From Fibrobacter sp. UWB16 (GTDB lineage: Bacteria; Fibrobacterota; Fibrobacteria; Fibrobacterales; Fibrobacteraceae): a DNA stretch of 64,000 bases. Shown piece after piece: positions 4,596 to 16,586 of the stretch. The first letter of the stretch is position 1. Each line of letters starts with the position of its first letter. The stretch lies in assembly GCF_900215325.1 (NCBI RefSeq), contig NZ_OCMS01000002.1:868001-932000 (forward strand), in the 5' to 3' direction. Position numbers and translations under genes: made by a program. The notes beneath the pieces are model-generated. The model had not been told where the DNA came from. It ran no database searches and saw nothing but the letters and a program-made list of their open reading frames with translations.

Positions 4596-4608
4596 AAGGG
4601 CGTAAAAA

Positions 4609-4637
4609 AGCACAAAACTTTAAAAAGCTTTGTGCGT
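4609..4637. terminator. Bidirectional hairpin terminator between tgt and the Rpn-type nuclease gene
   Basis: GCACAAAACTT (4610-4620) pairs with AAGCTTTGTGC (4625-4635) with one mismatch. It stands between the convergent ends of tgt (+) and the nuclease gene (-). Confidence 0.65.
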
Positions 4638-4683
4638 TCAACTATGAAATGCGATGAATTAGGTTGGGCTTGCAGTTATTTGC

Positions 4684-5487
4684 CTACAAGGCCTTGATTT
4701 CTTCGATAGTAAATCCGGTCTGCTTAGAGATAATGTCCAAAGAAACACCATCGTCGCGAAAACCCTTTGCCATCGCTTTTTTCTCTTCGAATGCCTTAGC
4801 CTCGGCTTCCTTTCTTCCTTCTTCCTTGCTTTCGTGAAGATCAAATTCGTAAGTCATATACTTATTCCTTATGAAAGTATCGGTCTTGTAAAAGGACACC
4901 TGGTTGTTGATGGTTTCGGTTTCGCGAGAGTCCACATTGTTTGTTGCAAAGTACTTCATGTATGCCTTGACGACAGGATCTGTGAATTCCTCGTATTTTC
5001 TAAATATATAATAATTCTTGAAGGTGAGGTCATTTAATGTAATGTTGAAATCCTCCTTTGCCCTGTTCTCAAAATGGTAAACAGGGAATCCTCCGCCAAA
5101 AATGTCTACGGGGCATAGAAAGATAATATATTGTTCTCTGAGACTTGTGTAAAAATCTCCTTTGGAGAGGGCTACACCGTCGCCGACACTTTGGTAATAC
5201 CGAGCCCTTTGCGGGAGTTCTTTGGTATCGACCATTTGCATCTCTAAATCAAAAGAACGGATGGCTTCTCCGTTTTCGTTTGTTTCGCGGGCAAAAACAT
5301 CGTAACGGACTCCCTTGTGTTCTGCGTCGTAACTTAGGACAGCTTCTGGGATTGGTGTTTCAAGATGGTCAATTTTGATGCCTAGTAAATGCTCGATGAA
5401 GGGCTGCGCGATATGTTTGTTACTAAACACGAGTCCGAACATGATTGGGTCAGTGATGTCAAGTTCGTCAAAAGATTTTATGCTCAT
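4684..5487 (-). CDS. Rpn-family PD-(D/E)XK nuclease/transposase-like protein
   Basis: A 267-residue member of the PD-(D/E)XK nuclease family (PDDEXK_2, recombination-promoting nuclease Rpn type). The catalytic core shows RYDVFARE and then SFDLEMQ (Asp..Glu-x-Gln), followed by the family block RARYYQSVGDGVALSKGD. The C-terminus has a Lys/Glu-rich helix and a helix-turn-helix-like end (DGVSLDIISKQTGFTIEEI) typical of these proteins. The ATG at 5487 follows AAAGGCG; frames further upstream lack a ribosome site. Rpn proteins are linked to RecA-independent recombination and, in some strains, to phage defence. It stands at the edge of an AT-richer island, which suggests transfer. Confidence 0.85.
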   Translation of the reverse strand: MSIKSFDELDITDPIMFGLVFSNKHIAQPFIEHLLGIKIDHLETPIPEAVLSYDAEHKGVRYDVFARETNENGEAIRSFDLEMQMVDTKELPQRARYYQSVGDGVALSKGDFYTSLREQYIIFLCPVDIFGGGFPVYHFENRAKEDFNITLNDLTFKNYYIFRKYEEFTDPVVKAYMKYFATNNVDSRETETINNQVSFYKTDTFIRNKYMTYEFDLHESKEEGRKEAEAKAFEEKKAMAKGFRDDGVSLDIISKQTGFTIEEIKAL

Positions 5488-5710
5488 AAATTCGCCTTTA
5501 ATTGTTTCGGGAGTCGTAATATATACGTGCAAATTTGGGAAAAGCTGTTTCCTGTAAATTTTGCAAACAACCGTTATCAAAATGCTTCATTTTGCCAACT
5601 GTTGATAGCAAATGTGTTTGTAACAAAGTATTGAAGATGTACTCTTGTTGTGGTGATCGTGTTGAATTGCGCCCTCTTAACGAGTTCACATGAAATAGGT
5701 TATAGTGTGT

Positions 5711-6004
5711 ATGAAGCATATTGAAACACTGACAATCGGGAAAATTCTTGACGAAGAATTCTTTACTCCCATGGGTTTGTCTGCGGATAAGGTTGCTAAG
5801 GCAATCAATGTTCCGGTTTCAATGATTCAGGATATCCTTCATGACCGTAGGAGAATTACGGTTGATACATCCTTAAAGCAAGCCAAGTTCTTTGGCGTTT
5901 CCGACAACTATTTTATTTCTTTGCAAGATGATATCGATATCCGTAATTTGAAAGTTGAATTGGCAGAAGAACTGGGTAAAATCATGGCGATTGTAGCTGC
6001 CTAG
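5711..6004 (+). CDS. HigA-like XRE-family antitoxin, no toxin partner seen
   Basis: A 97-residue protein with a helix-turn-helix (GLSADKVAKAINVPVSMIQDIL) followed by RRRITVDTSLKQAKFFGVSDNYF, the HigA addiction-module antidote pattern. HigA binds HigB and represses the higBA promoter. HigB normally lies immediately upstream, but the 223 bases before this gene hold no RelE/HigB-like frame, and the downstream gene is a GIY-YIG protein on the other strand. The ATG at 5711 is preferred over the GTG two codons earlier. It may be a solitary regulator, a remnant, or may neutralise a toxin elsewhere. Confidence 0.85.
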   Translation: MKHIETLTIGKILDEEFFTPMGLSADKVAKAINVPVSMIQDILHDRRRITVDTSLKQAKFFGVSDNYFISLQDDIDIRNLKVELAEELGKIMAIVAA

Positions 6005-6032
6005 ATGGGATATTGGGATGATATATCCTTTC

Positions 6033-7223
6033 CTAATCTAATGAGCGTAATTCGATGTTCTTGTGTTTTTTGAATTCTTTTATGACATCATTCCAAGATT
6101 CATGTGTGTGTTTAGGGCTGTAAATGACAAAACAGCGAATGTCGGGAAAAGTTTTGGCAAATAGAGAAATGTTTTCGTTCAAATGAAAGAGAATTTCTTG
6201 TATACTTGGAATTTTCTTCCGTAAAATTTCGAATTGTTTAAGAATAAAGCTTGGATTCCAAGTGAAAATATTGTTATATTGATCTTTGAAGAACATGCTA
6301 GTTTGATCTTTATCCCAAATCCAATACCAGTCAAAATCTATAATATCATTTGTTTTTTTAGTTAGACATAAATCTTTATCAGTGAGTTGATTCTCAAAAT
6401 TGGCTAGCCAATTTAGTTTATTAGCTACATCATTGATTTGAATGAAATTTGACTCATTAAGAATATATTTACAAAAGGGATCGTTTATGGCATTTTGCAT
6501 TCCATAGGCAAAAGATCCCATAGTGTGTTTTGCAAAATAATCAAATCCAGATAAATCGTTTAGATAAATTGGTTCCTTGCAAATAAATCGAGTTCCTTTT
6601 AACGAATAATCGGGTCCATGCATGGATTTGGTAAATGTTATTTCTTCTATTTGAGTGTATTCCCATAAAAAGAAGTCTTTTTTCTTGTGACCTTGCTGCT
6701 TTATTCCAACGATCAAATAAATCTTTTGGCCTTTCAATTTTAAACAATCTCTTTTTTGTGAGACTAGGGAATACGAATCTTCGTTGATATTGTAAAAAAA
6801 AGTATCTTCTCCGGGTAGATGGTTTAATGCGTTAAAATTATGGTATTGAACATAGCAACATTTTTCAGAAGAATTTTCTTTTCGAGGCCACATCCTGTCC
6901 GGACTTGGCGGACACATCATTCTATTGTATTCGGGTTGCAACTCGTCAATTTTTGCGTATTCGTTTTCTGTTAGGCTTTCTCTATCGCATTCTAGAAGAA
7001 CTTCAAATTTAAAATTCCCATAGGTTCCAGGTTGTGAAATCTGTTGGGTCAGACCGTATTTACAGAATGCTCTGCGGAGCGGATTTTCCTCATCAATATT
7101 TTTGATTTTATCAAGTGATTGTGTATGCTGCTTCCAACGGTTGGAAATATTGATAGACTGGCCAATGTAGCTTTTGCCATTAACCAAGTTTGTGATTTTA
7201 TAAATTCCGCAGATTGATTTCAT
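6033..7223 (-). CDS. GIY-YIG nuclease-domain protein with an unknown C-terminal region
   Basis: A 396-residue protein. Residues 1-105 form a GIY-YIG fold: CGIYKITN, then SYIGQSINISNRWKQH, and a later acidic residue in LTENEYAKIDELQPEYN. The remaining ~290 residues, rich in aromatic residues and lysine, match nothing I recognise; they contain FDWYWIWDKDQ and a late segment with CFVIYSPKH. No signal peptide or membrane helix is seen. The gene lies 18 bases downstream of a MORN-repeat gene on the same strand, so the pair is probably one operon. Base composition is clearly AT-richer than the flanks. A homing, defence or toxin-type nuclease are all possible. Confidence 0.75.
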   Translation of the reverse strand: MKSICGIYKITNLVNGKSYIGQSINISNRWKQHTQSLDKIKNIDEENPLRRAFCKYGLTQQISQPGTYGNFKFEVLLECDRESLTENEYAKIDELQPEYNRMMCPPSPDRMWPRKENSSEKCCYVQYHNFNALNHLPGEDTFFYNINEDSYSLVSQKRDCLKLKGQKIYLIVGIKQQGHKKKDFFLWEYTQIEEITFTKSMHGPDYSLKGTRFICKEPIYLNDLSGFDYFAKHTMGSFAYGMQNAINDPFCKYILNESNFIQINDVANKLNWLANFENQLTDKDLCLTKKTNDIIDFDWYWIWDKDQTSMFFKDQYNNIFTWNPSFILKQFEILRKKIPSIQEILFHLNENISLFAKTFPDIRCFVIYSPKHTHESWNDVIKEFKKHKNIELRSLD

Positions 7224-7241
7224 GGATTTCAAATTACATTT

Positions 7242-8171
7242 TTATTGAACAATTGAATTGTTTTGTATTTCTCCAAATACGTTTTCAAAGTTTTTTCTTG
7301 CAAAACGATATGATTCTACTGCTGTATGCAGCTTTTCTTTTACACTTTCCACTGTGATTAGCCCTAGTAAATCTAACGATTCTGCAATTTCGCATAAATC
7401 TTGCATGGCCATACAGTAATTATTGGCTACATCTTCGTTTTCAATATTATTTGCAAGTTCATAATTTTCGTCATCTTCATCGAAGTACATAGAAGGATCT
7501 TCTTTCATTAACTCCACTTCTTCTTTTGGAAAATTGACGTAATCGCATAGCTTAAGATAGGCTTCAAAATCAATTTCGTTTCCTTCGAGATCATAGTAAA
7601 TGTTTTTATATGTTGGTTTGTAAATTTTTGTCCAGCAGATACGGCCATTGGTATAAAAAGTATCTTCTTGAACAACACCTAATCCTTTTAGATATCTTTT
7701 GTATGAAGGAATGTTATTGTCTACGAGATAGTGAATTTCGTAAGAATCATCTTTGTCTAAACAAAAATTTCCGCTTGGATAGTATGATTTTTCATATTGA
7801 AAAATTCTTTTTCCGTTTATGTATTTTTTTTCAGCTTTCAATCGACCTGTATCAGGGTAGTATTCTAAAATGAGACCATCTTTTTTTCCGTTAGCATATG
7901 TAGTTTCTAAAATTTTGATGCCATTCTGGTATTCAATAACGATACCTTCTTTTTTTCCGTTGGCAAAAGGTGTATGTTTTGAAAGGATCCCTTTGTAATA
8001 CTCGTCTTCGATAACCTTTTTGCCGGATAAATACTGAATTCTTTTTACGTAGTTTCCGTTGACGTCGTATATAGTTTCCCAACCGTTTTTCTTGCCATTA
8101 AGCCATTCTGTTGATTTTACAACTTTACCGTTTAAATCTTTTTCCTCTATAAGTCCATTTTTCTGTGGCAT
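7242..8171 (-). CDS. MORN-variant repeat (YwqK-like) protein
   Basis: A 309-residue protein whose first ~190 residues are MORN_2-type repeats (NGKKNGWETIYDVNGN.., ANGKKEGIVIEYQNG, ANGKKDGLILEYY), the fold annotated as YwqK-family antitoxin. The C-terminal ~110 residues are helical and acidic (FPKEEVELMKEDPSMYFDEDDENYE). It is the upstream gene of a two-gene unit with the GIY-YIG protein. In Bacillus YwqK is encoded beside a polymorphic toxin, so an immunity or chaperone role for the GIY-YIG protein is an inference from gene order only. AT-rich like its partner. Confidence 0.75.
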   Translation of the reverse strand: MPQKNGLIEEKDLNGKVVKSTEWLNGKKNGWETIYDVNGNYVKRIQYLSGKKVIEDEYYKGILSKHTPFANGKKEGIVIEYQNGIKILETTYANGKKDGLILEYYPDTGRLKAEKKYINGKRIFQYEKSYYPSGNFCLDKDDSYEIHYLVDNNIPSYKRYLKGLGVVQEDTFYTNGRICWTKIYKPTYKNIYYDLEGNEIDFEAYLKLCDYVNFPKEEVELMKEDPSMYFDEDDENYELANNIENEDVANNYCMAMQDLCEIAESLDLLGLITVESVKEKLHTAVESYRFARKNFENVFGEIQNNSIVQ

Positions 8172-8290
8172 ACGGAACCTGTGTTTTTTAGTTGATGTCT
8201 TTAATATATATTCTGCTGTTTGTAAGTGAAAAATATGTCAAGTAGATTTTTTGATGTATTTAAAAATCTTGCATTTTTTTTGAAAGAATA

Positions 8291-8432
8291 ATTTCGCGTT
8301 AGGGATAGTGACCCCTTGGGGCGGAGACTTGCTTGCAAGGCTCCGTTTTAGGAGGCTGGTGGTGAGCGAAGTAAAACCAACAGTCCCTAAAATATAGCCC
8401 GCCCCGTGTATGCACGGGGAACGCCCAAAGCG
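8291..8432 (+). other. Palindromic structured element, possible non-coding RNA or dispersed repeat
   Basis: A GC-rich block in AT-rich DNA with nested complementarity. GCGTT (8296-8300) can pair with AACGC (8420-8424), and TTAGGGA (8299-8305) with TCCCTAA (8384-8390). CGGAG-a-CTTGC pairs with GCAAG-g-CTCCG (8322-8345) around two bases, and CCCCGTG pairs with CACGGGG (8402-8419). The outer stem, inner stem and two tight hairpins give a compact multi-helix fold. There is no open frame with a ribosome site. I recall similar blocks between genes in other bacterial genomes but cannot name a family. Confidence 0.55.
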
Positions 8433-8535
8433 GAAAAGAGAATATTTAAAAAGGTAAATCGTTTTTCCCACCTTATAACAATATTTTCAACTTAAAAACA
8501 GAAGTTCGGTTTTCTGTGAGGGTGCCGAAAATTTC

Positions 8536-8543
8536 TAGATTTG
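8536..8543 (+). promoter_or_regulatory. -7 promoter element TAGATTTG before ahbC
   Basis: It matches TAnnTTTG inside TTTCTAGATTTGG, the same string found before the ApeO gene. Five bases separate it from the ATG at 8549, which argues for that start over the in-frame GTG at 8516 upstream of the element. Confidence 0.55.
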
Positions 8544-8548
8544 GGCCC

Positions 8549-9721
8549 ATGATCAGTATCACTAAGCTTTTGATGGACACCCCGAATTTTGGGGATTCTC
8601 TTCGTTATCAACCTCATGCGCACAAGGCGACAAATGGTGTGGGCGCAGGACGTGGCCCGGTGGTGGTGTGGAACTGCACCAAGACTTGCAACCTGAAGTG
8701 TGTGCATTGCTATGCGCGTTCTGAGGCGATTAAGTACCAGAACGAACTTACGCACGAAGAGGGAATCAAGCTTATTGATCAGCTTGCGGATTTTCATGTG
8801 CCGGTGATTTTGTTCAGCGGTGGCGAACCGCTTTTGCGCCCAGACTTTTTTGAACTTGCGAACTACGCGGCAAGCAAGGGCATCCGCCCGACGATTTCGA
8901 CGAACGGCACCTGCATCACGCCGGATGTGGCTCAGAAGCTCAAGGCGATGGGCGTTGGCTATGTGGGCATCAGCTTGGATGGTTGCGAAGAAACTCACGA
9001 CAAGTTCCGCGGCAAGCAGGGCGCGTACCAGATGGCTTTGCACGGGATCCGCAATTGTGTGGCGACGGGCCAGAAGGTTGGGCTCCGCTTTACGATTACG
9101 AAGTACAACTATCAAGACTTGAACGCCATTTTCGATTTGCTCGAAGCGGAAAACATTGATAGAGTTTGTTTCTATCACCTTGTCTATAGCGGTCGCGGAA
9201 GTGCGATGGTCGATAACGACTTGAATCACGAAGAGAGCCGCAAGGTGATGGACTTGATTATTGACCGCACTTTGGACTTTAAGAAGCGCGGCGTGAACAA
9301 GGAAATTTTGACCGTCGATAACCATGCCGATGCCGTTTATCTGTACCAGCGCATGAAGCGCGAAGATCCGGAACGCGCCGAAAAGATTTTGGATTTGATT
9401 AAGATGAACGGTGGCAACCGCAGTGGCATGGCATTTGGCAATATCGATAGCATTGGCAATGTGCATCCGGACCAGTTTACGCAATATATCACGCTCGGAA
9501 ATGTTCGCGAACGCAGTTTTGGCGACATTTGGACAGACTTGTCAAATCCGATTATGGCTGGCCTCAAGAACCGCAAACCGCTTTTGAAGGGGCGTTGTCC
9601 GAAGTGTGCTTACTTGAATTTGTGCAACGGCAATTTCCGTACGCGTGCCGAAGCCGTTACTGGTGACTTCTGGGCCGAAGACCCCGCTTGCTATTTGACG
9701 GATGAAGAAATTGGGCTGTAA
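8549..9721 (+). CDS. ahbC: AhbC, Fe-S radical SAM 12,18-didecarboxysiroheme deacetylase
   Basis: A 390-residue radical SAM enzyme of the NirJ1/AhbC group that removes the two acetate side chains of 12,18-didecarboxysiroheme to give Fe-coproporphyrin III. The SAM cluster motif is CNLKCVHC near residue 50 and the SAM-binding GGE is in FSGGEPLLRPD. The family hallmark FYHLVYSGRG is present, and a C-terminal auxiliary cluster region carries CPKCAYLNLCNGN and a final Cys. It starts the heme gene block and overlaps the next gene by 20 bases. The start is fixed by the promoter element just upstream; no Shine-Dalgarno site is seen. Confidence 0.92.
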   Translation: MISITKLLMDTPNFGDSLRYQPHAHKATNGVGAGRGPVVVWNCTKTCNLKCVHCYARSEAIKYQNELTHEEGIKLIDQLADFHVPVILFSGGEPLLRPDFFELANYAASKGIRPTISTNGTCITPDVAQKLKAMGVGYVGISLDGCEETHDKFRGKQGAYQMALHGIRNCVATGQKVGLRFTITKYNYQDLNAIFDLLEAENIDRVCFYHLVYSGRGSAMVDNDLNHEESRKVMDLIIDRTLDFKKRGVNKEILTVDNHADAVYLYQRMKREDPERAEKILDLIKMNGGNRSGMAFGNIDSIGNVHPDQFTQYITLGNVRERSFGDIWTDLSNPIMAGLKNRKPLLKGRCPKCAYLNLCNGNFRTRAEAVTGDFWAEDPACYLTDEEIGL

Positions 9722-10730
9722 AGCCCCTCGCGAAGTGCCGCAAATGCTGAGCCAAAAACTTTTCGCGATTATTCAAGACGGCTTTCCGTTGGTGGAGCGC
9801 CCGTATAAGGCGCTTGCGGAAATGTTGAACGTTTCTGAACAAGAAGTTTTTGACGAAGTTGAGAAAATGCGCGCTTCTGGCGTAATTCGCCGTATCGGTG
9901 GCGTGTACGATTCCAAGAAACTCGGCTTTATTTCGAGACTTTGTGCAGGGAAGGTTCCGGCGTCGGAAAATGATTTTTCGGCAGAACATCATGCGCAAAC
10001 GCCGATGGAAAAGTTCGCTGCAGTCGTGATGAGCGAACCCGCGATTACGCACAATTACATCCGTAGTCACGAATACAATGTTTGGTTTACGGTCATTGCT
10101 GAAAATGAATCTGCAATCCAGGCTGTTGTGGACCGCATGTGTTTGCAAACGGATTTGCACGATGTCCATGTCCTCACCGCCACGAAAAAGTATAAAATCA
10201 ATACGGTGATGGGGAAGGGAACAAATCGTCATTCCGAGGACCGAAGGGCCGAAGAATCCAGTAAATTCCCCGGAACGCTCGATGATTCCGACAAGTCGCG
10301 CATCCACATCGCTTGTGATGACATCCCGCATACGCTCACTCCGTTTAAGGATTGGGGCGTTTCTTGCGATGAACTTCGCGAGGACCTTGCCGCCAAACGC
10401 ATGCGTCGCTTTGGAGCAATCCTCCGTCATCAAGATGCGGGTTTCCCATGCAATGCGATGGTGTGCTTCTCTCGTCATTCTGAGGACCGAAGGGACGAAG
10501 AATCCAGTAAAATTAAATCTCTTGCGAAAAAGCATTTTGTTTCGCATTGTTACGAGCGTCCGGTTTTTGAAAATTTTCCTTACAATTTGTATGCAATGAT
10601 GCATGCTCAGACGCCCGAAGAATTGAACAGCTATATCAAAGAATCCGTGGCTTTGCTTGATAATCCGGAATACGTCGTTCTCCATTCGCTCAAGGAACTC
10701 AAGAAAACGAGCTTTAGATTTTTTGCGTAG
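9702..10730 (+). CDS. AhbA-AhbB fusion siroheme decarboxylase carrying two in-frame repeat insertions
   Basis: A 342-residue protein joining two Lrp/AsnC-like siroheme decarboxylase halves. The first half (about 15-150) has a full helix-turn-helix and RRIGGVYDSKKLGF. The second (about 210-340) keeps RRFGAILRHQDAGFPCNAM and SHCYERPVFENFPYN but only the end of its helix-turn-helix. The heterodimeric AhbA/AhbB enzyme converts siroheme to 12,18-didecarboxysiroheme. Residues 176-187 and 258-269 (RHSEDRRxEESS) are translations of an intergenic repeat: one in the linker between halves, one in the loop before SHCYERP. Start at 9702 overlaps ahbC; ATG 9744 is an alternative. Confidence 0.88.
   Translation: MKKLGCKAPREVPQMLSQKLFAIIQDGFPLVERPYKALAEMLNVSEQEVFDEVEKMRASGVIRRIGGVYDSKKLGFISRLCAGKVPASENDFSAEHHAQTPMEKFAAVVMSEPAITHNYIRSHEYNVWFTVIAENESAIQAVVDRMCLQTDLHDVHVLTATKKYKINTVMGKGTNRHSEDRRAEESSKFPGTLDDSDKSRIHIACDDIPHTLTPFKDWGVSCDELREDLAAKRMRRFGAILRHQDAGFPCNAMVCFSRHSEDRRDEESSKIKSLAKKHFVSHCYERPVFENFPYNLYAMMHAQTPEELNSYIKESVALLDNPEYVVLHSLKELKKTSFRFFA
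10227..10262 (+). repeat. 36-bp CGTCATTC..GAATCCAGT repeat inside the ahbAB frame (copy 1)
   Basis: It is identical to copy 2 (10473-10508) except for two bases and shares arms with intergenic copies at 51022-51057 and 54050-54085. It is read as RHSEDRRAEESS. Confidence 0.9.
10473..10508 (+). repeat. 36-bp CGTCATTC..GAATCCAGT repeat inside the ahbAB frame (copy 2)
   Basis: Same repeat and same reading frame as copy 1, read as RHSEDRRDEESS. Both lie in one gene 246 bases apart. Confidence 0.9.
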
Positions 10731-10754: not shown

Positions 10755-12125
10755 ATGCGCAAAATTTACATGGCAGGCATGAGCCACAAGGTGGCTGAAA
10801 TCGCGATTCGCGAAAAGTTTTATATCCCGATGGATGTAAAGACCGAGGCGTTGACGCATTCTCCGTTTGATGAACTTTTGATTTTGGCAACGTGTAACCG
10901 CACGGAAGTCTATGTGGCGAGCGACCGTGAAATCACTGATGGTGAACTCGTTCGTTATGTGTGTGGACTTGCCCGTCAAGACTACGATGATTTTGCGAAG
11001 TTCTTTTATTTTAAGTCGGGTGATGATGTTGCGCACCATGTGATGAACGTGTGTGCGGGTCTTGATTCTGTAGCCATGGGCGAGGATCAGATTTTGCACC
11101 AGATTGGTCGTGCGTACGAAACGGCTCACCAGCTGAATGCGACGGGCAATACGCTGAACAAGCTTTTCCAGAGCGCAATCCATACGACAAAGCGTATCAA
11201 GACTGAGACGAATTTGAGCAAGCTCAGTTGCAATATTCCGTTCTTGGCGATGAAACAAGTGCAGAAGACTTTTGACGATCTTGAAAATCGTACTGTGTAC
11301 ATCGTGGGGCTTGGCGAAATGGGTTCGTTGATGCTCAAATATGTACAAGAGAATACGACCAAGATTTTTGCAAGTAGCAAGACTTTTGCGAATGCCGAAA
11401 AATTTGCAGATGTGCTTACTCCTGTGAAATTCGAAGACCGCTACGAAGTTCTTGGCAAGTGCGATGTCGTGATTCTTTGCAGCGCTTGTCAGGAACCGAT
11501 TGTGACGAAAGATGAATTTGTTAAGGCTCTTGCTTTATATCATCCTGTGTATCGCGAAGACAACTCAGAAGGCGAGCGTTGCAAAAATGAAAAAGATCAT
11601 TTTTATAACCGAGCCGAAGAGTTGGGGCTGCATGCAGCCCCATCCAGTGAAGGTTTGTCTGCTGTGACCACCCCTTCAAAGCGATTGATTATCGATCTCG
11701 GTAGCCCGCGCAATGCTGAAGCTTCTATTGGCGAACTTCCGGGTGTTGAATACGTCTGCGTTGATGACCTTGAAAAAATCGTCTCAGAAAACCGGCGTTT
11801 GCGCATGATTGAACTTGATGCGGCTCAGAAAATCTTGAAAGAAGGTCTCGACGAATTCTTGCATTGGAACCGCATGGACGAGGTTTCTAAGCAAATTCAT
11901 TTGCATGCCGAGAAAATGCTTACGACGGCAAATGAAGAATCTGAAAAGTTATTGCGCTCTATGCCGGAACTTTCGGAAGATGATCGCCACCGCATCCAGA
12001 TGATGTACGAACGATTTGCGAAGAAAATGGCAAATGACTTTCTGTATAAAGTCAAAGCCGAAAATTCTCCTGAAGATGTGCAGGTTTTCCTGAAGTGTTT
12101 GGATTCGAAATCTCCTAGAAATTAG
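10755..12125 (+). CDS. hemA: Glutamyl-tRNA reductase
   Basis: A 456-residue enzyme that reduces glutamyl-tRNA to glutamate-1-semialdehyde, the first committed step of tetrapyrrole synthesis. The catalytic Cys is in LATCNRTEVY (near 50), the substrate block is GLDSVAMGEDQILHQ, and the NADPH-binding loop is GLGEMGSLM. It is ~35 residues longer than usual; the extra part lies between DEFVKAL (about 265) and RLIIDLGSPRNAE (about 310). That insert contains a perfect 20-bp palindrome, so it probably derives from a repeat. A promoter element stands four bases upstream and there is no ribosome site. Confidence 0.95.
   Translation: MRKIYMAGMSHKVAEIAIREKFYIPMDVKTEALTHSPFDELLILATCNRTEVYVASDREITDGELVRYVCGLARQDYDDFAKFFYFKSGDDVAHHVMNVCAGLDSVAMGEDQILHQIGRAYETAHQLNATGNTLNKLFQSAIHTTKRIKTETNLSKLSCNIPFLAMKQVQKTFDDLENRTVYIVGLGEMGSLMLKYVQENTTKIFASSKTFANAEKFADVLTPVKFEDRYEVLGKCDVVILCSACQEPIVTKDEFVKALALYHPVYREDNSEGERCKNEKDHFYNRAEELGLHAAPSSEGLSAVTTPSKRLIIDLGSPRNAEASIGELPGVEYVCVDDLEKIVSENRRLRMIELDAAQKILKEGLDEFLHWNRMDEVSKQIHLHAEKMLTTANEESEKLLRSMPELSEDDRHRIQMMYERFAKKMANDFLYKVKAENSPEDVQVFLKCLDSKSPRN
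11623..11642 (+). repeat. Perfect 20-bp palindrome inside hemA
   Basis: The half-site TGGGGCTGCA is followed by its exact reverse complement. It lies in the ~35-residue stretch that ordinary glutamyl-tRNA reductases lack. Confidence 0.75.
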
Positions 12126-12137
12126 AGGAGGCTTGCT

Positions 12138-13193
12138 GTGAGTGACTTGAAATTACGTATTGCAACGCGCAAGAGCGCTTTGGCTTTGGCCCAGACGACG
12201 ATGGCGGCAGATGCTATTGTCGCTGCGAATGCGGCTGCAGAACCGTTGACTTATGAGCTAGTCTCTATGACAACCGAAGGCGATCGTCGTTTGGATAAGT
12301 CGTTGGCGAGCTTTGGCGGCAAGGGCGTGTTCATCAAGGAACTAGAAATTGCACTCCTCGAAGATCGTGCCGATATTGCGATTCACAGTTTGAAGGATAT
12401 GCCTGCCGAAGTGCTGCCGCAGTTCAAACTTGCTGCAGTCCTCAAACGTGAAGACCCGCGAGATGCGTTCCTTTCGCGTGGTGGTGCTGCTGGGGTCCGC
12501 TTTATGGATTTGCCGGCTGGCGCTTGCGTGGGTACGGGTAGTATTCGCCGTGTGGTACAGCTCAAAGCGCTCCGCCCGGATTTGGAATATGTGCCGATTC
12601 GCGGAAACATCCAGACTCGCATTGGCAAACTTGCGGAACTTGATGGTGTTGTGCTTGCGGCGGCAGGGCTTAAGCGTATGGGGCTTGCTGACCAGGTAAC
12701 GGAATATTTTAGCACCGAACAGATGCTCCCCGCAAGTGGTCAGGGAATCCTCGCGATTGAAACTCTTGCCGATTCTGACACTTGTCATCCTGAGCGAAGC
12801 ACTGTGTGCGAAGTCGAAGGATCGAGGGCGATTTGTAACGACCTTGCGCAGATTCTCGCTCGCGTGAACGATGTTGCGACATTCTGCATCGCTTCTGCTG
12901 AAATGGCGTATTTAAAGGCGCTCAATGCCGGTTGCCAATTCCCGGTGGCAAGTTTCGCGGAATTTATTTCCGATGATAGTGCTAAAAATCGCGGCACTTG
13001 TGGCGCACTCGAAGAGAATGCTAATAGAATTGCGCAGACTTTGAAAATCCGCGGTATTTACTGGGACGAAAAATCAGAAAAACTGCTCCGTGCAGAAAAC
13101 TCGGGCGCGCTTGATTTGAACTCTGCGGATTGCGTTCTGCATGCTAAGAACTTGGGCGTTGAACTTGCCCGCGAAATTCAAAAGCAATTATAA
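12138..13193 (+). CDS. hemC: Porphobilinogen deaminase (hydroxymethylbilane synthase) with an in-frame repeat
   Basis: A 351-residue enzyme that polymerises four porphobilinogens into hydroxymethylbilane. Visible blocks are RIATRKSALALAQ at the N-terminus, HSLKDMPAE, GTGSIRR.., RGNIQTRIGKL and, in domain 3, the dipyrromethane-cofactor Cys in NAGCQFPVASF (C266). Residues ~214-231 (TCHPERSTVCEVEGSRA) are a translated intergenic repeat placed between the strand ILAIETLA and the helix LAQILARVND, where ordinary enzymes have a short loop. The GTG start at 12138 follows AGGAGG just after the hemA stop, so the two are one operon. Confidence 0.94.
   Translation: MSDLKLRIATRKSALALAQTTMAADAIVAANAAAEPLTYELVSMTTEGDRRLDKSLASFGGKGVFIKELEIALLEDRADIAIHSLKDMPAEVLPQFKLAAVLKREDPRDAFLSRGGAAGVRFMDLPAGACVGTGSIRRVVQLKALRPDLEYVPIRGNIQTRIGKLAELDGVVLAAAGLKRMGLADQVTEYFSTEQMLPASGQGILAIETLADSDTCHPERSTVCEVEGSRAICNDLAQILARVNDVATFCIASAEMAYLKALNAGCQFPVASFAEFISDDSAKNRGTCGALEENANRIAQTLKIRGIYWDEKSEKLLRAENSGALDLNSADCVLHAKNLGVELAREIQKQL
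12782..12826 (+). repeat. TCATCCTGAGCGAAG..GAAGGATCGAG repeat inside hemC
   Basis: It shares its arms with the intergenic copies at 1628-1680 and 63878-63912. The insert keeps the hemC frame open. Confidence 0.85.
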
Positions 13194-13431: not shown

Positions 13432-13989
13432 TTACTTTTTTTCAGGCTTCGATACAACGGGCTTGATTCGTTTGCCGCAAAGCGTTACGATAATTCCAGC
13501 CTGTGCGAACATGTAATAAGCTGTATCTCGGCTGTTGTTCAGCGTGGACTTCGGATCGTAATCGTCCTTGGTCACGAATACTTCGGCAACGCCCGAAAGG
13601 CTAATGTCCAATGAGCAGCGTTCGCACGGAAATCCAATCACGTAGAGCTTGGAACCCGGAGGAACCTTACCGCGGGCATAGTGGAGCGCGTTGATTTCGG
13701 CATGGACCATGAACGGATACTTGTTCGCCTCGAATTCGTGGTGGCTCAAAAGCTCACCTGAGTCGGCGTCTAGCAAATCGTAAGCGAGGAGTTGCTTTTC
13801 GCGCGTGTACGGAACGGTCTCGTCGTCGAATCCGGCCGGAGCTCCATTGTAACCCGTGCTAATAACACGCCCGTCGGCGCTCACAAGAACGGCACCCATT
13901 TGGGTGTTTTGGTCTTTGGAAAGGCGTGCCTGGGCACACATCATCTGTGTATAGACTTCGTCGCGAAGCTTTGCTCTAGAACTATTCAT
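13432..13989 (-). CDS. dCMP/cytidine-type deaminase
   Basis: A 185-residue zinc deaminase of the ComEB/dCMP deaminase type. The zinc ligands and catalytic Glu are in HAEINALHYA and PCERCSL, and NTQMGAVLVSADGRVISTGYNGAP is the conserved N-terminal strand and loop. It probably converts dCMP to dUMP for dTTP synthesis. The ATG at 13989 faces the divergent cobA-hemD gene; the 54 bases between the two starts must hold both promoters. An in-frame start 18 bases further upstream is less likely. Confidence 0.85.
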   Translation of the reverse strand: MNSSRAKLRDEVYTQMMCAQARLSKDQNTQMGAVLVSADGRVISTGYNGAPAGFDDETVPYTREKQLLAYDLLDADSGELLSHHEFEANKYPFMVHAEINALHYARGKVPPGSKLYVIGFPCERCSLDISLSGVAEVFVTKDDYDPKSTLNNSRDTAYYMFAQAGIIVTLCGKRIKPVVSKPEKK

Positions 13990-14029
13990 GCTAAAAAATA
14001 TAGGCAAAATTTTAATGGCGAAGTTTTTC

Positions 14030-14037
14030 TAAATTTG
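14030..14037 (+). promoter_or_regulatory. -7 promoter element TAAATTTG before cobA-hemD
   Basis: It lies in TTTCTAAATTTGG, six bases before the ATG at 14044. No ribosome site is present, which suggests a leaderless transcript. Confidence 0.55.
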
Positions 14038-14043
14038 GTTTCG

Positions 14044-15627
14044 ATGGAAAATTCGAATCATTTTGGCAAAGTTTATTTGATTGGCGCGGGCCCTGGCGAT
14101 CCTGGGCTTTTAACCGTGCGCGGAAAGACGATTCTTGAAAAAGCCGATGTTGTGGTTTACGATCGTTTGGTTTCACCGGGTGTGCTCTCGTTATGTAATC
14201 CGAAAGCAAAGATGGTGGATGTGGGTAAAATGCCGACGCACCACAAGGTGAAACAGTCCGAAATTAATAAACTCCTGGTAAAATTTGCCGTTGAAATGCC
14301 GGGCGCGACCGTAGCTCGTTTGAAGGGCGGCGACCCGTTTGTGTTTGGGCGTGGTGGCGAGGAGGCTTTGGAACTTGTCGCTGCTGGAGTCGAATTTGAA
14401 GTTGTGCCTGGCGTGACCTCTGCCATCGCTGTGCCTGCCTATGCGGGCATTCCCGTGAGCCATCGTGGAATTGCAACAAGTTTCCATATCATCACAGGGC
14501 ATGAAAAAGCCGAGGCTGGTGATTCGCTTTCTTTAGACTTTGAAAATCTCGCGAAGTGCCAGGGGACGCTCATCTTTTTGATGGGCATTGCCAATATGGA
14601 CTTTATTGCACGTCGTTTAATCGAGTGTGGCAAAGACCCGAAGACTCCGCTTGCGTTTATCGAAAAAGGGACAACCCCGAACCAGCGTACCGTTATGGCA
14701 ACGCTTGAAACAGCGGGCGAGACCATTGTCCGTGAAAATGTGACTGCACCCGCAATTACGATTATGGGTGGTGTGGTTGAACTTGGCAAGACTCTTGCGT
14801 GGAAAAAGAATTTGCCGCTTTCGGGCAAGCGCTTGGTTGTAACGCGTGCCGCAAAACAATCTAGTGGGATTACTGCTCGACTGACAGCTCTCGGTGCCGA
14901 AGTTATCGAAACTCCGATGATTGAGACACGGGATGTTTTCCCTTGTTGTCATGCCGGACTCCGTTCCGGCATCTCCAATTCTTCTGAAAATATGGTTGCT
15001 GAGCCTGTCGAATTCGAAGACCTCAAAAATTTTGACATTCTCGCTTTCACAAGCACGAATGGTGTTGAATCTTTCTTTACGCAGTTGCTCGCTTCGGGTA
15101 ATGACATTCGCATTCTAGCTGGCAAGAAAATTGCAAGTGTCGGAAAAATCACCGAAAAGAAGTTGCTTGAATACGGCATCCGTTGCGATTACGTTCCTAA
15201 AGACCACACCGGCGAAGGACTAGGTTTGTTGTTGCGCGAAGTGGTTGACGACGAATCTCGTATTCTTCTTTTGCAAGGCAATCTTGCAGACGATACTTTG
15301 CTCAAACTCTTACCGAAAGCAACCCGCTGGACGGTTTACGAAACACTGCCGGTTGCTGAACTCCCTGAATGGAAATGTGAAGCTATTGCCTCAGCCGATG
15401 CAATCGTCTTCGCCAGTTCTAGCGCTGTCGAGAATTTTTGTGCTGTCATCCCCGCGAAGGCGGGGATCTCCTTTGACCATTGCCCACATACTTCATTCTG
15501 TATTGGTCGCATGACTGAAGCTTCCGCGAAAAAGCATGGCTTTGAAACGGTCACCTCTGATGAAACAACGATGGATTCGCTCGTCAAAAAAATCGTGAAG
15601 TATTACACGATGGGGGAGAATGCTTAA
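14044..15627 (+). CDS. Uroporphyrinogen-III C-methyltransferase/uroporphyrinogen-III synthase fusion with repeat insertions
   Basis: A 527-residue fusion of CobA/SUMT and HemD. The methyltransferase half (1-255) shows GAGPGDPGLLT, VVYDRLVSPG, RLKGGDPFVFGRGGEE and VPGVTSAIAVPAYAGIP. It methylates uroporphyrinogen III to precorrin-2. HemD (260-527) closes hydroxymethylbilane to uroporphyrinogen III and shows RLVVTRA, FTSTNGVESFF and CIGRMTEASAKKHGF. Two repeat-derived segments are read in frame in HemD (residues 302-311 CHAGLRSGIS, 467-476 VIPAKAGIS) and a third may be MVAEPVE (316-322). The start is the ATG at 14044 just behind the promoter box; an open frame upstream is antisense to the deaminase gene. 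Confidence 0.93.
   Translation: MENSNHFGKVYLIGAGPGDPGLLTVRGKTILEKADVVVYDRLVSPGVLSLCNPKAKMVDVGKMPTHHKVKQSEINKLLVKFAVEMPGATVARLKGGDPFVFGRGGEEALELVAAGVEFEVVPGVTSAIAVPAYAGIPVSHRGIATSFHIITGHEKAEAGDSLSLDFENLAKCQGTLIFLMGIANMDFIARRLIECGKDPKTPLAFIEKGTTPNQRTVMATLETAGETIVRENVTAPAITIMGGVVELGKTLAWKKNLPLSGKRLVVTRAAKQSSGITARLTALGAEVIETPMIETRDVFPCCHAGLRSGISNSSENMVAEPVEFEDLKNFDILAFTSTNGVESFFTQLLASGNDIRILAGKKIASVGKITEKKLLEYGIRCDYVPKDHTGEGLGLLLREVVDDESRILLLQGNLADDTLLKLLPKATRWTVYETLPVAELPEWKCEAIASADAIVFASSSAVENFCAVIPAKAGISFDHCPHTSFCIGRMTEASAKKHGFETVTSDETTMDSLVKKIVKYYTMGENA
14947..14976 (+). repeat. TGTCAT..ATCTCC palindromic repeat inside cobA-hemD (copy 1)
   Basis: 30 bp with stem TGCCGGA/TCCGGCA. It has the same ends and length as intergenic copies such as 60297-60326. 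It is read as CHAGLRSGIS. Confidence 0.88.
14994..15012 (+). repeat. Short GAGCCTGTCGAA repeat inside cobA-hemD
   Basis: GGTTG-c-TGAGCCTGTCGAA matches 24970-24988 in tadA with one difference. It follows the previous repeat by 17 bases. Confidence 0.5.
15444..15471 (+). repeat. TGTCAT..ATCTCC palindromic repeat inside cobA-hemD (copy 2)
   Basis: 28 bp with stem ATCCCCGC/GCGGGGAT around a short loop. It is read in a different frame from copy 1, as VIPAKAGIS. Confidence 0.85.
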
Positions 15628-16586
15628 TGAAAGCTATTCTTATCATCGCTCATCATTGCATTTTGCCGGGTGCGTACAAAGGATTCGAAGAAATTCTCGA
15701 CCGCTTGCATCATGACTTGCCGGGTACGCGCGTGGCGAGCACAAGTTTGTTAGATTTGGAAAACGACCTCCGCACGCTTTTGCGCGAAGACGTAGAATCG
15801 GTGACGCTTCTGCCGTATTTGCTGTTGAATGGCCAGCATACAAAGAATGATGTGCCGCGAGTGGTTGCAAAATTGCAGGCGGAATTTCCGCAAATTCCGA
15901 TTACGCTTTTGCCTTGCCTTGGCGATTGGAAAGAATTTTCGAGCATGGTTGTGTGCGGTATTCGCAATGCACAGAATGAAATTTCTCAAAGCGCCGCTGG
16001 TGTGACCTCGCTACTCAAAGCTCCACAGGAGCGCTCCCATAGCTCAAACCTCTTCTCCATCGAGCTGAATCTCGAAGGGCGTAACGTTCTCGTTGTGGGC
16101 GGTGGCCGCATTGCTCTGCGCAAGGTGAAAACGCTTATCCCGACCGGTGCTCATATTACTGTTGTCGCTCCGCAATTCGACCCCGAATTTAGTGCGCTTT
16201 GTCGTCATTCTGAACGAAGTGAAGAATCCAGTTGTTTCTCGAATTCAGCATCTGTAGAGCCCTCTTCTATCACATTAAAGCAGCGCCCTTACGAACCGCT
16301 TGATTTGCGTTGTGTTTTCATGGTTTTCATTTGTACCGACCAGCCTGCCGTCAATGCCCAAGTTTCTAACGATGCACGCGCTCGTCGCATTCTCGTGAAT
16401 AATGCTTGCGATTACCTCGATGGTGATTTCATTGTGCCTGCCCGCATGGATTTTGGCGAAAACATTGCCGTGACCGTCTCCACGCAGGGCCGTGCCCCTT
16501 CGCTCGCCAAGAAACTCAAGCAGAAAATCCAGACCGAATGGGCAGAAGACCTTGTGCAAATTGAAAAAGATTTCAAAAAGGAATAG
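15627..16586 (+). CDS. Sirohydrochlorin chelatase-like/precorrin-2 dehydrogenase fusion (SirB-SirC type) with an in-frame repeat
   Basis: A 319-residue protein. Residues 1-120 resemble a short CbiX/SirB chelatase domain (ILIIAHH at the start, LLPYLLLNGQHTKNDVP). Residues ~150-319 are the Met8p/CysG-N dehydrogenase: NVLVVGGGRIALRKVKTLI, TVVAPQFD, QRPYEPLDL, VSTQGRAPSLAKKLKQKI. Together they would turn precorrin-2 into siroheme. Residues 193-202 (RHSERSEESS) are a translated repeat in the loop after TVVAPQFD. The ATG overlaps the previous stop by one base. The chelatase part is short, and its second catalytic histidine is less certain. Confidence 0.87.
   Translation: MKAILIIAHHCILPGAYKGFEEILDRLHHDLPGTRVASTSLLDLENDLRTLLREDVESVTLLPYLLLNGQHTKNDVPRVVAKLQAEFPQIPITLLPCLGDWKEFSSMVVCGIRNAQNEISQSAAGVTSLLKAPQERSHSSNLFSIELNLEGRNVLVVGGGRIALRKVKTLIPTGAHITVVAPQFDPEFSALCRHSERSEESSCFSNSASVEPSSITLKQRPYEPLDLRCVFMVFICTDQPAVNAQVSNDARARRILVNNACDYLDGDFIVPARMDFGENIAVTVSTQGRAPSLAKKLKQKIQTEWAEDLVQIEKDFKKE
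16203..16232 (+). repeat. CGTCATTC..GAATCCAGT repeat inside the sirBC-like frame
   Basis: A 30-bp shortened member of the family seen twice in ahbAB and between genes at 51022 and 54050. It is read as RHSERSEESS. Confidence 0.85.

Follow-up and report, generated by a model that had tools for sequence, protein, structure and literature searches.

A conserved multi-hairpin repeat at the distal end of accessory gene cassettes in the Fibrobacteraceae

In integrons, the attC site is a structured, variable and covarying sequence that comes immediately after the stop codon of small accessory genes (for toxin-antitoxin pairs, restriction or unknown functions), and genes are exchanged at this site within gene-site-gene-site arrays. 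The dif modules of Acinetobacter (pdif, XerC/XerD) similarly hold accessory genes, often toxin-antitoxin pairs, between short sites, and according to two reports they are shuffled by exchange between these sites without a recombinase encoded by the module (PMC6449649, PMC13141974). The element analysed here resembles attC in both of these respects, and with the dif modules, as described in those reports, it shares the arrangement of small accessory genes that are bounded by sites and shuffled.

The element lies in a window of 64,000 nucleotides, the whole stretch of DNA that was analysed, from Fibrobacter sp. UWB16. We lean slightly towards the reading that it is a copy of a Fibrobacteraceae-specific repeat, located at the 3' (distal) end of acquired accessory cassettes and acting as a joint for their gain, loss and exchange.

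Fold and boundaries of the element

The repeat to which the window element belongs is about 115-200 nt long, has fixed ends, and folds into four hairpins closed by the pairing of GCGTT with AACGC (Table 1). In the window copy, GCGTT starts at 8296, AACGC extends to 8424, and the conserved tail CCCA continues to about 8428. A folding test of positions 8280-8445 gave an energy of -60.9 kcal/mol (z = -4.1), which none of 200 dinucleotide shuffles equalled, and the match of the covariance model at this site is its sole match in the window. Overlapping the 5' arm of the closing helix P1 is a TAG at 8300-8302, which is usable in other copies as the stop codon of the upstream gene. Two stretches of the multi-hairpin fold, TATAGCCCG and AGGGATAGTGA, are conserved and single-stranded. 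The CCC at 8398-8400 can pair with the GGG at 8302-8304, and this pairing is 99.3% intact, yet its positions show almost no variation and hence lie outside the reach of covariation.

Table 1. Coordinates of the element, its parts and the neighbouring genes in the window.
Feature	Position	Strand	Basis
Structured element (cassette-end element)	8296..8429	+	Covariance model match 8296-8427, 145.5 bits
P1 5' arm GCGTT	8296..8300	+	97.4% of cells paired, 101 copies; mostly invariant
Conserved 5' box GCGTTAGGGATAGTGACCCCTTGGGG, 26 nt, including small hairpin H0 (8312-8314 with 8319-8321)	8296..8321	+	Near-invariant in alignment A1
Hairpin H1 CGGAGACTTGCTTGCAAGGCTCCG	8322..8345	+	Double changes in 8/9 pairs, 101 copies
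Hairpin H2 TTTTAGGAGG..TCCCTAAAA	8346..8392	+	Double changes in 10/12 pairs; 96.7% paired
Conserved TATAGCCCG	8393..8401	+	Invariant or nearly so in A1
Hairpin H3 CCCGTGTATGCACGGG	8403..8418	+	Double changes in 5/6 pairs
P1 3' arm AACGC, then conserved tail CCCAAA	8420..8424	+	Pairing in 101 copies; flank counts
Rpn-family nuclease/putative transposase	4684..5580	-	TIGR01784, 61 bits, cut-off 52.1
HigA-family antitoxin	5705..6004	+	TIGR02607, 69.7 bits, cut-off 47.7
Accessory gene with GIY-YIG domain	6033..7232	-	PF01541, E 1.4e-7
Accessory gene adjoining element, 309 aa, repeated YwqK-like motifs	7242..8171	-	Weak NCBIfam match NF033566
Promoter-like TAGATTTG of host operon	8536..8543	+	Read from sequence; 3' of element
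NirJ1/AhbC-like radical SAM protein, first gene of heme/siroheme operon	8549..9721	+	TIGR04054, 694 bits, cut-off 650

The structure was taken from an alignment of 28 copies made with MAFFT only (alignment A1), tested, and then built into the covariance model. A second alignment of 101 copies was fitted to this model, and A1 serves as its model-free counterpart. Across the 101 copies, 96.4% of the pair cells are paired and double changes occur at 24 of the 38 pairs. The double-change cells number 590, compared with 172 in shuffles, and the covariation score of 0.399 exceeds those of shuffles (0.117) and of slid partners (at most 0.066). Alignment A1 agrees, with a score of 0.320 versus at most 0.072. 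Covariation among homologous copies, whose absence the preliminary description had named, along with that of a transcript, as refuting its proposal, is found.

If double-stranded DNA alone were involved, G-T and A-C oppositions would be expected at equal frequencies in the stems. On the + strand, however, there are 106 of the former and 30 of the latter overall, and 56 and 28, respectively, in well-paired columns. While the relatedness of the copies and the tolerance of the model for G-U mean that this figure is no clean probability, its direction is clear, and the excess of G-T implies that the folded strand is the + strand, as either an RNA or a + single strand. An earlier suggestion that the block may be an RNA is thus compatible with the excess, as is a single strand of + sense. 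Together, the comparisons show that the fold is conserved and that the + strand is the one that folds.

The multi-hairpin block recognized in the preliminary description is accordingly real by both folding z-score and covariance, although one of its four helices was mis-assigned. Its GCGTT/AACGC pairing is retained in the relatives as the mostly invariant P1, while the hairpin CGGAG..CTTGC and the pairing CCCCGTG/CACGGGG reappear as H1 and H3, both with strong covariation. In place of TTAGGGA/TCCCTAA, however, the relatives pair CCCTAAAA with TTTTAGG to form H2 (8346-8392, where 10 of 12 pairs covary), and the GGG of TTAGGGA can instead pair with the CCC of TATAGCCC. The block had further been described as GC-rich in AT-rich surroundings. 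Its GC content is 0.56, compared with 0.30 in the 300 nt to the left and 0.46 in those to the right, so that the contrast holds mainly against the island side.

Distribution, position and exchange

A genome-wide search for copies, as proposed at the outset, yielded three in the UWB16 genome (G000): the window copy, C2:260064-259928(-) and C1:1189196-1189332(+). In a first search, covering 61 genomes, 34 of the 37 Fibrobacter genomes carried copies and none of the 24 others did. With the covariance model applied to 168 genomes of the phylum, copies turned up in 75 of the 80 that belong to Fibrobacter and in a further 14 from sister genera within the Fibrobacteraceae, at about 1-19 copies per carrier. 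Outside the family, the model gave no more than two matches, both of them marginal (E 1e-4 and 9e-4). The element is therefore specific to the Fibrobacteraceae and essentially absent elsewhere. Some carriers outside Fibrobacter are likely to be misbinned: a number of short MAG contigs from the rumen contain core-gene or cassette DNA of Fibrobacter at about 89-98% identity. Six contigs from MAGs assigned to Treponema, Bacteroidales, archaeon or Elusimicrobia (L082, L088, L108, L118, L124 and L127) carry Fibrobacter-like DNA of these kinds and look misbinned; in L092, L100 and L152, little matched Fibrobacter beyond the element.

At the gathering threshold, no Rfam family matched in the window, and sau-6072, the best candidate below threshold (E 0.28), was rejected as a chance match. 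No similar DNA was found in phages and plasmids; a 17-mer of the element occurs at six loci in viral contigs, none of which holds the full element by pattern. The literature search covered open-access papers, with subscription papers outside it, and found no description of such an element. The element thus appears to be new with respect to Rfam and the open-access literature.

The position of the element relative to its neighbours is markedly polar. Of 152 copies, 103 have their nearest upstream ORF in the same orientation (p = 1.4e-5). In 82 of these, the gene stops somewhere from -7 to about 60 nt relative to the start of the element, and eight of the 103 genes use the element's own TAG as their stop codon. 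In about a third of the copies, including that of the window, the gene before the element is on the other strand. The 300-nt flanks have a GC content of 0.384 on the left and 0.507 on the right, with the left being lower in 119 of 130 copies (p = 4e-21), and the 5' flank reads WTTY in most copies. The genes just upstream encode restriction enzymes (LlaJI, Eco47II), toxins (ParE, YafQ, PIN, HepT), PD-(D/E)XK nucleases (PDDEXK_4), DpdF, Fib_succ_major lipoproteins and glycosyltransferases, and the element is rarely attached to core genes. Taken together, the position of the upstream genes, the polarity in flank GC and the accessory cargo imply that acquired DNA ends, on its distal side, at the element.

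The window element had initially been assigned to the edge of an accessory island. This assignment holds: the genes at 4684-8171 are accessory and the siroheme/heme operon begins at 8549. The accessory stretch, 3.7 kb from about 4600 to 8429, encodes an Rpn nuclease, a HigA antitoxin, a GIY-YIG protein and a repeat protein. Unlike in the majority of copies, the adjoining cargo gene is on the opposite strand and runs away from the element. This 309-aa gene is missing at the same site in the relatives G004 and G027, in which the GIY-YIG gene abuts the element; the two relatives share the right flank and H3 with UWB16, whereas H2 is different.

Some features of the heme operon itself may be recorded here. 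The ORF at 9702-10730 encodes AhbA-like and then AhbB-like siroheme decarboxylase subunits, apparently fused. In this protein and in those encoded at 12138-13193, 13792-15627 and 15627-16586, segments such as RHSEDRRAEESS, CHPERSTVCEVEGSRA and CRHSERSEESS are read in frame and resemble translated interspersed repeats (compare the Rickettsia palindromic elements).

Comparisons between loci place exchange at the element. In pairs of loci that have a common cassette and different right flanks, homology is lost either at +19 to +53, which is in or just after the 5' box, or just behind the element; within the conserved 26-nt box, breakpoints are not resolvable. One and the same cassette can precede element bodies and right flanks that differ between loci, and pairs with a common right flank but different cargo are also present. 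At a second locus (in G070, G000, G004, G014 and G149), near-identical elements occur with three different right flanks and with several left ones; the order in G070 is element-gene-element, and in G004 a single element joins the outer flanks. Arrays of the form element-promoter-gene-element occur as well. It is thus well supported that the element stands, throughout the family, at the distal end of accessory cassettes and that exchange takes place there. Furthermore, the hairpin modules H1, H2 and H3 are mosaic and recombine among themselves, for which a single site-specific crossover is an insufficient explanation. Repeats of 137 bp with 96-97% identity could recombine by RecA alone.

At several loci, a core-gene remnant, truncated to its 3' part, directly follows the element, and a full copy of the gene lies upstream of the cargo. 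Such displaced parts, named by reading their translations, derive from carB (L223), thrS (L219, L220), nifJ (L227, L228, L230) and frdB (L237), and the displaced copies are decayed. Terminator-like hairpins lie behind the fragment in L230 and L228, as does a tRNA-like gene in L230, an order that is expected if the incoming unit renewed the 3' end of the gene and the old end was pushed aside. A same-strand duplicate was found upstream in 15 of the 86 copies with enough DNA, an inverted duplicate in none. The reverse control gave 0 of 52; random windows, however, gave 6 of 82, some of them possibly lying within fragments, and the duplicate signal alone is therefore modest.

Other repeated features were noted around these loci. 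CarB-like ORFs occur in 17 element loci (among L073-L188 and L219-L238), carB being, with thrS and others, a recurrent integration neighbourhood. A second interspersed repeat, about 95 nt long and reading TGTGAGCC..GACTCGTC..GACGAGTC..GCGAACGGTCATCATAG, is found in L228 (11163-11260 and 11741-11843), L230 (8664-8762) and L227 (about 11400-11475); it is located inside displaced core-gene fragments and also in the H0 loop of some elements (for example, L222 EL2, L083 and L139). A third repeat, palindromic and about 50 nt in length, reads AAGGCGAGAG..GCG[variable hairpin]CATTGCCGAGCC; it is present in L220 and in the downstream flanks of L008, L013 and L182, and recurs in core-gene fragments. An inverted repeat, GGGCGTTCCC, terminating the cargo on either side was considered as a general feature and rejected, having been seen once (L230) but not as a rule.

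Proposed role and alternative readings

On the reading that we favour slightly, copies of the element would mark the distal end of mobile defence and toxin cassettes, with cargo lying 5' and host DNA 3' of each copy, and the element would itself be a substrate for recombination. The folded + strand might be recognized by a putative recombinase, as attC is by IntI, perhaps a housekeeping enzyme; alternatively, the copies may offer portable homology for general exchange of the RecA type. An incoming unit would renew the 3' end of a core gene and displace the old one, and in the window the element would join the heme operon, on its upstream side, to the 3.7-kb accessory stretch. A more far-reaching proposal, which we put forward only tentatively, is that this constitutes an integron-independent cassette system, in which the Fibrobacteraceae take up defence and toxin genes, stack them and exchange them at folded sense-strand sites adjacent to essential genes, through a putative and perhaps housekeeping recombination enzyme, with the 3' end of the core gene being renewed at each insertion.

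The islands examined and their surroundings yielded no recombinase, and no recombinase family recurs in the islands. The families that do recur are Fib_succ_major proteins, PIN toxins and methyltransferases, together with the target genes carB, thrS and valS (names assigned by reading the sequences). An attachment site, as contemplated in the preliminary description, comes close to the role suggested by the polarity over 130 copies and the exchange of flanks. A classical integrase att site does not fit, as no recombinase recurs and the element is a family-wide repeat that ends many cassettes, rather than a short core at both ends of one island.

The principal alternative, which appears rather unlikely, is that the element is an RNA element of the 3' UTR of cassette mRNAs, functioning in stability, termination or processing, and that recombination is a by-product of its being a repeat. 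Folding on the sense strand, placement immediately after stop codons in the same orientation, and a complex fold with the conserved single-stranded TATAGCCCG and AGGGATAGTGA would all be accounted for in this manner. Yet about a third of the copies, that of the window among them, stand behind a gene on the opposite strand, and attachment to core genes is rare; nor would a mere mRNA tag predict displaced core-gene fragments right behind the element. As no T-run follows H3, the element is not an intrinsic terminator.

It is less probable still that the element is a non-autonomous mobile or mosaic repeat of the BIME or MITE type, inserting behind stop codons in T-rich DNA, and that the cassettes merely collect its insertions. 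The dispersed copies with fixed ends, the WTTY in the 5' flank of most of them, the mosaic hairpins, and the other interspersed repeats inserted in and near the element are what such a repeat would display. The element has 5-bp inverted ends, GCGTT/AACGC. In the loci compared, however, there is neither a target-site duplication nor a clean empty site with both flanks and no element, and the flank polarity in 119 of 130 copies and the swaps of cargo exactly at the element would be unexpected from random insertion. A Y1 transposase (PF01797) of the RAYT type is absent from the UWB16 genome and from many carriers, so that a REP element mobilised by RAYT was rejected as a general explanation. Similarly, a retroelement with its own reverse transcriptase was rejected: PF00078 is absent from the UWB16 genome and from most carriers.

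Finally, a leader or riboswitch of the heme operon starting at 8549, although the element is structured, lies 120 nt upstream on the same strand and precedes an operon that makes a cofactor, can be dismissed as exceedingly improbable, being ruled out by distribution, with the element present in just 3 of about 30 orthologous upstream regions and its other copies beside unrelated genes, and by the position of the promoter-like TAnnTTTG box, which lies between the element and the ATG, and thus downstream of what would be the leader, and which recurs just 5' of the orthologous ATG in most species, whether the element is present or absent.

Should the preferred reading of a cassette-end joint be correct, a family of gut fibre degraders would possess its own route to acquire and shuffle defence, restriction and toxin-antitoxin genes. 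The tag, being searchable with a covariance model, would provide a ready catalogue of accessory cassettes, as well as a direct test of whether integron-like cassette systems arose more than once. Even as an RNA tag of accessory mRNAs, the element would be a strongly covarying structure present in nearly every Fibrobacter genome and absent from Rfam and the open-access literature searched.

Comparison with known systems

Despite its likeness to attC, the element differs from it in several respects. The ends of the element are GCGTTAGGG..GGAACGCCC, whereas the attC ends RYYYAAC..GTTRRRY were found in none of 142 copies on either strand. The element has four hairpins as opposed to one, and its folded strand is the sense strand, compared with the bottom strand in attC. 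Furthermore, cassettes of the element often have promoters, and displaced core-gene ends follow the last site, unlike in integrons. In 25 Fibrobacter genomes, no IntI match (TIGR02249) exceeded the cut-off and only generic tyrosine recombinases were found; true TIGR02249 matches are confined to other families of the class. With the R boxes and IntI, two defining features, both lacking in the copies and genomes searched, the element is not an attC site, but rather attC-like in role.

The pdif sites are 28-bp Xer sites that lack a long multi-hairpin fold, and the element is not known to resemble dif. Unlike pdif sites, it stands at one end of each cassette and in one orientation. With BIME/REP and ERIC sequences it shares an intergenic position behind genes, a mosaic of hairpin modules and a genus-level distribution, yet it is set apart from them by its few copies (about 1-19 per genome), its strict polarity between acquired and host DNA, its accessory cassettes, and the lack of a RAYT in many carriers. 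Islands that integrate at the 3' ends of genes likewise leave a full core gene with a new 3' part upstream and the old 3' part downstream. At the element loci, however, several hundred base pairs are restored instead of a short att core, many core genes are involved (carB, thrS, nifJ and frdB), and the units have no integrase.
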